A stretch of 14,634 bases of DNA from contig WGFD01000069.1 in assembly GCA_015492395.1 (NCBI GenBank), positions 1 to 14,634 on the forward strand, read 5' to 3'. The translations under genes and the position numbers were made by a program. The stretch comes from Deltaproteobacteria bacterium (GTDB lineage Bacteria > Desulfobacterota > GWC2-55-46 > S146-70). Shown here piece by piece: positions 3,604 to 7,654 of this stretch; within the stretch, counting starts at the first letter, position 1, and every line of letters starts with the position of its first letter. A model generated the notes under the pieces. The model worked only from the letters and a program-made list of their open reading frames with translations. It was not told the DNA's origin and made no database searches.

Positions 3604-4268
3604 TGTCAGGTCTTGAATAGTGAATTAACCTTCGTAAGCATTTTCTGTATTGCTTTGTCTTTAGATAATCTCGATTTCATTATAGCTACTTGACGGCTTA
3701 TAGATGAGTAGTCAAGACCAAACAACTCTCCGATCTCCTTATTATTGTACAATCCTGTATTCCAGATGCATAGGCAGGGTAACTGCTCCACTTGTAGTCT
3801 ACAAGCCTCTCCACGATTCCGGCCCGCAATGGATTTCTATGAATGTAGCAGGAAAGGGTAAGAAGATATCTATCGTCTTCTACCAGAAAGGCTTTATAGC
3901 GGCCTTGAAACAAGTGGCCGTTGCGACAATGCCTCATATTGTACCGGCGGGTATAGGTGATGCCAAACCACTGCATACTTCTGGAAATGTTCGCCATGTT
4001 GGTCCTGAGAAGCAAATGGTAATGATTCCCCATAAGCACATAGGCGAAAATATCGATTTGATATCTTCCCGACATTTCACTAAGTGGTTTTAAAAATGAG
4101 AGACGATCCTTATCTTCTCTAAAGATTTCCTGGCCCTCATTACCCCTCGACAGTATGTGGTAATAAGCCCCTTCAAATTCTATACGCCACTGCCTTGTCA
4201 TAAAAAATCCTCTAGCAAATATTCACTCTATTAGTCAATCAATTTATTCATATTCAAGATTTGATACC
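3602..4268. mobile_element. Y1/REP-associated transposase relic with imperfect inverted repeats
   Basis: The left end GGTGTCAGGTCTTGAATAG (3602-3620, similarity continuing to 3628) is repeated in inverted orientation as the right end at 4244-4268. The reverse complement of the right end begins GGTATCAAATCTTGAATA and continues TGAATAA. The arms share the core TCTTGAATA and most surrounding bases. They enclose one broken transposase gene on the minus strand. Such terminal palindrome-containing sequences are typical of HUH single-strand transposition systems, which recognise structured ends. Element limits are inferred from the arms only. Confidence 0.6.
3606..4201 (-). pseudogene. Broken Y1_Tnp / REP-associated tyrosine transposase (IS200-like HUH)
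   Basis: The N-terminal part (4201 down to about 3755) is a clear Y1 transposase. It starts MTRQWRIEFEGAYYHILSRG, has the metal-binding HUH motif in GNHYHLLLR (His60, His62), the FQGRYKA segment, and the candidate nucleophile Tyr119 in CYIHRNPLRAG. After DYKWSSYPAY the frame runs out of homology and stops at 3698. In another frame, residues encoded at about 3765-3606 give the family's C-terminal helix-turn-helix region, NKEIGELFGLDYSSISRQV. Full-length relatives have roughly 100 residues between these parts. The gene therefore has an internal deletion with a frame change at about 3750-3765. The catalytic residues survive, but the protein is truncated and probably inactive. Confidence 0.85.
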
Positions 4269-6326: not shown

Positions 6327-6397
6327 AGTAGGGGATTATACCCGATACCAGGGATCTGCGTTGCTTTCGACTATCATGAAGACTGCAGGAGGGAGTG

Positions 6398-7654
6398 ATG
6401 AGTCAACATATCGGTTTCAGTGTGGGTACGGAGGAATTCGCCGTCCCAATCCTTGTGGTACAGGAGATAATAAGACCAACCAGCGCCGTCAAGCTTCCCC
6501 ATACACCCGATTATGTCATCGGTCTGATCAACCTGAGGGGCAAAACCATCCCTGTAATAGACCTGAAAGAGAAGCTAGCCATTACGGAGAACGGTCATGG
6601 AGAAGATGGAAAGGTGCTGGTCATAAATATGGGCCAATTGACCTTCGGATGCAAGGTCGACGCGATAATGGGTGTAATGGATATCAGTGAAGATATGATA
6701 GAGACGAAGGTGGACCTCCTTGGCAATAGCGGAAGCGACTGCATCAATGGAATTGCGAATATAGACGAAAACAAGATGGTAATGCTCATAGACTTCCCGA
6801 AATTACTGAGCATTGAAGATATCTCCCTCCTGAGCGACCAGATATTAGATTCTGAGCTGTCCGATGATGGCAAGGTTATAGTTACAACCAAGAGATCCGG
6901 GATGGGCGGAGATATGTTGATAAGAGAGGTGAGGGAGGCTATGGAAAAGGACGCTGACTTGATTGGACTGAGTAAAGAGGCGGTAGAGAAGATCATGGAC
7001 GAAGTGCAGAAGCTCCTTGACGCACTCTCTGGAGGGGACTTCGCAAAGGCCGAAGAGGCGGTCTTGTCCCTGTCCAACTACAGCGAGCGGGAGATCTTTT
7101 CAGAACTCGGAAAGACTACCAGGAAGCTCCACGATTCACTGAACGAATTCAAGTCCCTGGTAGATCCAAAGCTCAGCAGTATGGCTAAAGAGGACATGCC
7201 GGAGGCCACGGATAAACTGGAATGGGTTATATCGAAGACCGATGAAGCGGCAAACAAGGCCATATCCATATCCGAAAGGAACCTCTCTCTCCACCCGAAG
7301 CTCCTGAAAAGCTTGGAAGTCATAGAAAAGAGGTTCTCCTCGCTCAGAAAGAAGTCCGGAGAAGAGAAAGAGGCGCTGACATCTATAAGGGACGGTATTA
7401 CGGGGATGAACAACGACTTCATGGAGATCATACTCGCCCAGGAGTTCCAGGATATAACCGGCCAGATACTCAAGAAGGTAATAAAGCTCGTCTCAGAGAT
7501 GGAGGAACACCTAGTCAACTTGATAAAGATCTTCGGTGTAAAGGTGGAGCCGAAGAAGTTCGAAGAGATGGCAGGACCGCAGATAAAGGCGGACGAAGAG
7601 ACACTCTCAAACCAGGATGATGTGGATTCGCTCCTCTCGGAGTTTGGTTTCTGA
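6398..7654 (+). CDS. cheZ: Chemotaxis fusion protein: CheW adaptor domain + CheZ CheY-P phosphatase domain
   Basis: One uninterrupted 418-residue frame joins two chemotaxis modules. Residues 1 to about 147 form a CheW domain (IGFSVGTEEFAVPILVVQEI; NLRGKTIPVIDL at 45-56; INGIANIDENKMVMLIDFPKLL), which normally docks CheA to receptors. About 80 residues of predicted helical linker follow. Residues about 230-418 align with CheZ along its length: an N-terminal helix REIFSELGKTTRKLHDSL, the catalytic segment AQEFQDITGQ with Asp352 and Gln356 (equivalents of E. coli CheZ Asp143/Gln147), and a C-terminal DDVDSLLSEFGF matching the CheY-binding tail QVDDLLDSLGF. The expected activity is CheY-P dephosphorylation at the receptor array. 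The ATG at 6398 is preferred over the GTG at 6395 because AGGAGGG (6387-6393) then lies 4 nt upstream. No other che gene is in the window. Confidence 0.93.
   Translation: MSQHIGFSVGTEEFAVPILVVQEIIRPTSAVKLPHTPDYVIGLINLRGKTIPVIDLKEKLAITENGHGEDGKVLVINMGQLTFGCKVDAIMGVMDISEDMIETKVDLLGNSGSDCINGIANIDENKMVMLIDFPKLLSIEDISLLSDQILDSELSDDGKVIVTTKRSGMGGDMLIREVREAMEKDADLIGLSKEAVEKIMDEVQKLLDALSGGDFAKAEEAVLSLSNYSEREIFSELGKTTRKLHDSLNEFKSLVDPKLSSMAKEDMPEATDKLEWVISKTDEAANKAISISERNLSLHPKLLKSLEVIEKRFSSLRKKSGEEKEALTSIRDGITGMNNDFMEIILAQEFQDITGQILKKVIKLVSEMEEHLVNLIKIFGVKVEPKKFEEMAGPQIKADEETLSNQDDVDSLLSEFGF

Follow-up and report, generated by a model that had tools for sequence, protein, structure and literature searches.

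How CheZ, the phosphatase of the response regulator CheY, finds the chemosensory array outside the enteric bacteria is not settled, and a repeatedly evolved protein in which CheZ is joined to the adaptor CheW offers a ready-made test of this question. Such a protein is encoded at positions 6398 to 7654 of the forward strand of contig WGFD01000069.1 (assembly GCA_015492395.1, Deltaproteobacteria bacterium), the 14,634 nucleotides of which are referred to here as the window. What might a CheW-CheZ fusion do, and how did it come to be there? Two or more separate events appear to have produced the join, and the fusion is probably an array-docked phosphatase of phosphorylated CheY (CheY-P) that serves a flagellar chemosensory system encoded on another contig (C192) of the same genome (G000), alongside free CheW, having been acquired by exchange of a cheZ gene. 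Array docking and the phosphatase role are predicted from conserved surfaces and gene context, and the G000 system served and the benefit are likewise predictions. An earlier note on the window, made from its letters alone, had drawn attention to the fusion; its claims are taken up below where the results bear on them.

The two halves of the fusion protein

The frame at 6398-7654 (+) stays open for 418 codons and ends with a TGA stop codon. A likely ribosome-binding site, AGGAGGG (6387-6393, +), was read from the sequence 4 nt 5' of the ATG at 6398, and an in-frame GTG at 6395 is an alternative start. Residues 4-138 of the encoded protein, P0001, match the Pfam CheW model PF01584 (6407-6811, +; 111.6 bits, curated cut-off 23.5) and residues 232-418 the CheZ model PF04344 (7091-7651, +; 147 bits, curated cut-off 30.7). 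One frame with both domains intact, as the earlier note had claimed, is thus present, and both halves scored far above the cut-off in the type of search that the note had proposed as a check. In correction of the note, the domains do not lie end to end but are separated by about 90 residues (139-231; 6812-7090, +). The narrower NCBIfam equivalog for CheW was missed (NF007903, 72.6 bits vs 260), as were those for CheZ (NF008368, 101.2 vs 257; NF041271, 17.6 vs 350), so that the second half is a member of PF04344 outside both of its narrower equivalogs.

In the CheW half, E23 and R47 correspond to E38 and R62 in E. coli CheW (an offset of 15 without gaps, relative to 2ho9), and this Glu-Arg pair occurs in all rows of an alignment, A1, of 70 of the 120 fusion proteins listed in a database search (see below). 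According to PMC4742279, the Arg62-Glu38 bridge is universally conserved in CheW and CheV of an enterobacterial set. The CheZ half was aligned by phmmer with E. coli CheZ (1kmi, chain Z) through the last residue, 214, with an E-value of 8.4e-18. D352 and Q356 (7451-7465, +), the numbers given in the earlier note, fall on the catalytic residues Asp143 and Gln147. Neither residue is replaced in any of the 122 rows of the main fusion group (two of them duplicates) or in the two rows of a second family, and the equivalent of D206 is kept in all fusion rows except a truncated one. The C-terminal CheY-binding peptide named in the note is also present: NQDDVDSLLSEFGF occupies residues 405-418, and residues 406-418 (7613-7651, +) align with the C-terminus of E. 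coli CheZ. All 70 rows of A1 have Q406, D410 and L413; a short helix is predicted at 406-415, and residues 416-418 have a predicted local distance difference test score (pLDDT) below 50.

Compared with E. coli CheZ, with which it has in common the DxxxQ site, the helical hairpin and the C-terminal peptide, the fusion adds the N-terminal CheW domain and the linker and has a shorter apical hairpin. The equivalents of L55 and D143 are a median of 67 residues apart in the main group (range 67-78) vs 88 in E. coli; in 17 other stand-alone CheZ the median is 78 (range 70-80). A short hairpin as a mark of the fusion was ruled out, since the distance is 79 in both second-family rows and 67 in one of three stand-alone CheZ that nest in the main group.

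The linker contains predicted strands and helices that are partly of low confidence; residues 150-172 were modelled below a pLDDT of 50. In this CheZ subfamily the long form includes the helices of the linker, and by eye a similar helix is seen in the stand-alone CheZ of loci L008, L011 and L014. In the stretch bounded by P0001 residues 138 and 236, the 70 rows of A1 have between 88 and 151 residues (median 97). A motif, GMGG, lies at residues 168-171, its last two glycines being present in 58 and 65 of the 70 rows. In the second family, the L013 protein has RGMAGMVEV at a place that by eye is similar.

The arrangement recalls CheV, where a CheW domain brings a further signalling domain to the array, as predicted for the fusion, and which, like the fusion, coexists with CheW; the analogy drawn in the earlier note holds at the level of layout. 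The cargo of CheV is a receiver, whereas that of the fusion is a CheZ phosphatase; the receiver domain PF00072 was absent from the Pfam matches of P0001 up to an E-value of 0.1, so that P0001 is not itself a CheV.

Occurrence and separate origins of the join

A protein search with P0001 yielded 272 matches at E ≤ 0.001, of which 120 were listed, including the query's own record. Both Pfam domains are present in all 120 listed proteins; the 119 other records are 35-59% identical to the query and align over 97-100% of it. G000 is a draft genome (2.09 Mb, 359 contigs, 93% complete), which could favor a sequencing or assembly artefact that joins two genes. This explanation, which the earlier note had envisaged, can practically be dismissed because both domains occur in one protein in every listed record, and the CheW-CheZ fusion gene is genuine. 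The organisms named among the listed homologues belong mostly to the Nitrospirota (Thermodesulfovibrio, Magnetobacterium, Magnetoovum and others). Most of the proteins that have a name are annotated as CheZ and some as "hypothetical" or "CheW-like". The suspicion that the architecture lies unremarked in databases was therefore well founded, with the exception of P0061, the JGI name of which cites both chemotaxis signal protein and CheZ. The earlier note knew of no characterised system of this kind, and no description of a natural CheW-CheZ fusion was found among the titles and abstract openings listed from the open-licence literature, which is no proof of absence; the architecture is nevertheless not rare, given the many Nitrospirota proteins. 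Database records of it already exist, usually annotated as CheZ, and the join is undescribed as far as the literature search reached. What is new here is a join of known domains that arose more than once.

Within the phylum sample, 35 of 148 genomes contain a CheZ over the cut-off, and a CheW domain is present in three of the 30 CheZ frames studied as loci (G000, G043, G079). The corresponding numbers for the class are 41 of 63 genomes and three of 30 frames (G000, G194, G195). The remaining over-cut-off CheZ frames of the class have at most 286 residues, too short for both domains, although contig ends may have cut some of them. Among the CheZ proteins, those of L006, L007, L009 and L010 have other, unassigned N-terminal extensions, and in those of L024, L025, L027-L031 and L033 the CheZ halves are parted by a long insert.

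In a CheZ tree, the fusions of G043 and G079, the second family, are separate from the main fusion group. A single clade of all fusions was rejected by the approximately unbiased test in this tree (p-AU 9.9e-8) and in an enlarged tree (8e-54), and a clade that was allowed to include the three nested stand-alone CheZ was also rejected (p 0.007 and 0.004, respectively); the groups put to these tests were defined with the first tree already known, and the trees include some long branches. The enlarged tree contained nine more members of the second family and omitted L016, L015, L032, E. coli and the truncated G079 row. In the first tree the second family stands with stand-alone CheZ (support 100/99), and in the enlarged tree the adjoining branch is weak (81/27). 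The second family thus has no certain position, but it is firmly separated from the first. In a CheW tree, the fused CheWs of G043 and G079 lie among stand-alone CheWs, near the ones encoded by these same two genomes (support of 89/95 for the inner group, with weak forks inside). A branch with 95/98 support parts the fused CheWs of the main group, which unlike ordinary CheW are joined to a phosphatase, from those of G043 and G079 and from 27 of 28 stand-alone CheWs; the 28th, L045, is on a very long branch and cannot be placed with certainty. As the trees of both domains set the second family apart, at least two separate joins of CheW to CheZ are indicated, and the tree tests reject a single origin of the fusions. 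Both families stand next to cheA.

A search with the G043 protein listed 120 matches, of which 14, including its own record, have both domains (55-100% identical) and the other 106 have CheW alone in the precomputed Pfam domains. The second-family fusion of G079 (L087:711-1931, contig C20) ends early, at 406 residues, and is without the C-terminal CheY-binding peptide. Within the main group, the two halves co-evolve (Mantel r 0.909, with none of 2000 permutations as high; 70 rows) and have a common history.

The cheY-cheA slot and the history of the gene

In 14 annotated loci a recurrent flagellar-chemotaxis cluster was recognised with the order HEAT-repeat protein-cheR-response regulator-cheY-X-cheA-cheB, preceded by flhF-flhG-fliA in several of the loci that extend far enough. 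The slot X is taken by the fusion in a Nitrospirota record (L004) and in G194 (L088), G195 (L089) and G043 (L086). In G079 (L087), the fusion lies directly 5' of cheA, and no second cheY was seen before it. Hence, in all five loci other than the window the fusion is immediately upstream of cheA, and in four of the five it is directly between cheY and cheA. The HEAT-repeat protein, of about 630-650 residues, is encoded directly 5' of cheR in 14 of 14 clusters (L051:6405-8306 and the corresponding place in L004, L086-L089 and L091-L098), and its homologues are 27-46% identical to the G000 copy.

In eight of eight class relatives (G119, G147, G196, G200, G164, G148, G179 and G185), hand-picked from the 41 class genomes with CheZ, the slot is occupied by a stand-alone cheZ. 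Although these genes, for example those of G119, G147, G196 and G200, have the same position in the same flagellar cluster, their products have no CheW domain and belong to a CheZ lineage different from that of the fusion. Stand-alone CheZ of the fusion's own subfamily are encoded in flhF-flhG-fliA-cheY-cheZ clusters at L127, L128 and L129. The cluster of G000 lies on contig C192; its cheY and cheA are 48 bp apart, with no gene inside. The fusion gene itself is in the window, where its neighbors are a macro-domain gene on one side and an LpxH-like gene on the other. Further 5' are a partial IS66 transposase gene (116-643, +) and an IS200-like gene for a REP-associated tyrosine transposase (3698-4201, -).

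The window fusion gene and the rest of the cluster have different histories. A cluster tree was built from the HEAT-repeat protein, CheR, the two regulators, CheA and CheB of 14 loci, some of them partial, with an odd letter make-up in the rows of G195 and G148. In this tree G000, G194 and G195 form one clade (100/99) beside class members with a stand-alone cheZ, and a grouping of G000 with the Nitrospirota record was rejected (p-AU 2.8e-5). In the fusion-gene tree, by contrast, a grouping of the window protein with those of G194 and G195 (P0024 and P0032) was rejected (p-AU 1.9e-7); the window protein pairs with P0003 (100/99) within a set of 14 (100/98) that includes proteins of Magnetoovum, Magnetobacterium and nDJH14bin7. 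Among the 120 matches listed for UvrB of the same window, the named relatives are mostly "Deltaproteobacteria" and Thermodesulfobacteriota, the best at 78%, whereas the best named matches listed for the fusion are Nitrospirota. On the simplest reading, the fusion gene entered the lineage separately from the cluster, and more than once, and the slot gene of G000 was lost. Gene exchange would be the cause of the differing history; alternatively, the difference could stem from old paralogues with differential loss. A recent transfer is not supported by base composition, which shows nothing clear. The GC content at third codon positions of the fusion gene (0.63) is inside the range of the window and cluster genes, and its total GC (0.486) is below that of all other measured window genes except the transposase (0.437) and within the cluster range (0.45-0.51).

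The fusion is the only CheZ over the cut-off in G000; two matches below it sit in receptors of the methyl-accepting chemotaxis protein (MCP) type. CheC (PF04509) had no match in G000, and CheX was not searched; FliM is present. A second CheA over the PF02895 cut-off is encoded on C191, and CheA-like frames are found on C295 and C336. CheW was detected at ten places in G000, including the fusion; each of the others is either a CheW-like frame or a portion of a CheA-like frame, and two of these others contain an in-frame stop. CheW free of both the fusion and CheA was found in G000, G194, G195, G043 and G079, which rules out the fused CheW as the only CheW in these five genomes and makes it an extra adaptor. 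For the Nitrospirota record, the corresponding check covered a 17-kb stretch.

A predicted phosphatase at the array and its alternatives

In the model that we consider probable, the CheW half would insert into the receptor-CheA-CheW lattice by the normal contacts, with the receptor tip and with P5 of CheA, and the CheZ half would dimerise and hydrolyse CheY-P at the array. The phosphatase would thereby be placed beside the kinase with no need for CheA-short, the form of CheA that, according to PMC7750401, anchors E. coli CheZ to the array through apical aromatic residues of the latter (written there as Phe-97 and Trp-98; the 1kmi sequence has W97 and F98). The target would be the HEAT-cheR-cheY-cheY-cheA-cheB system on C192, the fusion would work alongside free CheW, and it would have reached the lineage by exchange of that system's cheZ gene. 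The benefit may be a signal sink at the source, possibly separating the several chemosensory systems of one cell. In a model described in PMC2673030, array-bound CheZ is of higher affinity and activity than free CheZ. That the join apparently arose two or more times suggests direct docking of the off-switch on the sensor array in some bacteria. In the fusion, the columns of the E. coli aromatics that bind CheA-short are gaps in 124 of 124 rows of the multiple alignment, and in a pairwise alignment W97 and F98 face L and R; the absence of this contact makes another route of recruitment plausible.

Several observations weigh against this interpretation. The aromatics are also missing from the 20 stand-alone CheZ compared other than that of E. 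coli, and their loss is thus ruled out as a mark of the fusion. According to PMC7750401, which cites earlier work, alpha- and deltaproteobacterial CheZ are without sequences that bind CheA-short. Of the bypass of CheA-short proposed in the earlier note, the missing contact stands, whereas its absence is nothing special, and the fusion would be one answer to a wider problem. The same paper reports that the CheZ of Azorhizobium gets to the pole without CheA and names a motif, AXXFQ, that is present in P0001 (A347-Q351; the alanine in 39 of 70 rows), so that recruitment need not be the task of the CheW half. The three nested stand-alone CheZ (L008, L011 and L014) lie inside the main fusion clade, from which it follows that the CheW part can apparently be lost. 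In G000, the fusion is unlinked to any che gene recognised within the window. The AlphaFold model for the full-length protein is of low confidence (pLDDT 68.4, predicted template modelling score 0.39); the CheW barrel is fairly confident and the CheZ half forms long helices, but their relative arrangement is unreliable. Foldseek ranked 1kmi 28th for the CheZ half, a poor fold match (E 0.95), and for residues 256-384 the VIA rows shown were other long helical proteins, with 1kmi not within the 50 shown. Because the fold evidence is weak, the identity of the CheZ half rests on its sequence.

CheW domains sit at the contact between receptor and kinase. This position would also suit a sensor: the CheW half might read the activity of the array via CheA P5 or the receptors and switch the phosphatase, thereby controlling gain rather than location. 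We regard this as unlikely. The partly conserved GMGG would be expected if the linker did more than tether, but the sequence does not single out sensing from plain tethering, and the linker varies in span and contains residues modelled with low confidence. It is very unlikely that the CheW half serves to fill CheW sites, for example in CheW-only rings, while the CheZ half acts as a dimeric strut between neighboring array units. The additional presence of free CheW fits such a role, yet a pure strut would have no need of the catalytic Asp and Gln, which no fusion row lacks, or of the D206 equivalent, which is missing only from the truncated row. That an adjacent cheW was joined to cheZ by chance and has been tolerated as a neutral add-on to an ordinary CheZ of unchanged function is highly improbable; the nested CheZ of the same subfamily without CheW would agree with it, but the tree tests point to two or more separate joins, and the fusion has been kept down to 35% identity with both active surfaces conserved.

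Returning to array docking, an extension of the model is conceivable, although we rather doubt it. As CheZ is a dimer, a fusion dimer would have two CheW domains, and it may engage the lattice at two sites, connect array units and make the array both source and sink of CheY-P, the gene having arisen by separate fusions and been exchanged at the cheZ slot. The CheY-P of each system would then be private, which would matter in cells with several systems, such as G000 with its extra CheA and CheA-like frames. The fusion lends itself to experiment: the CheW half can be removed or grafted, and the cluster slot offers matched organisms with and without the fusion.

CheZ-like sequence was also seen in MCP-type receptors, which contain a CheZ-like FQDxxxQ, for example SLQFQDITRQRIEHV. 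They are encoded in G000 at L052:595-1854 (C191) and L056:13-924 (C48) and at L132, L134, L135 and L137, six of the nine loci checked; the pattern had no match in the receptor loci L133, L136 and L138. In each of the six, FQDxxxQ lies 114 residues past the receptor-tip motif, and the scores of these receptors against the CheZ model, 17-23 bits, stay under its cut-off. Possibly, a CheZ-like active site is built into the receptor. A cheY-like gene lies directly 3' of the receptor gene in L052, and in L056 one small gene intervenes.
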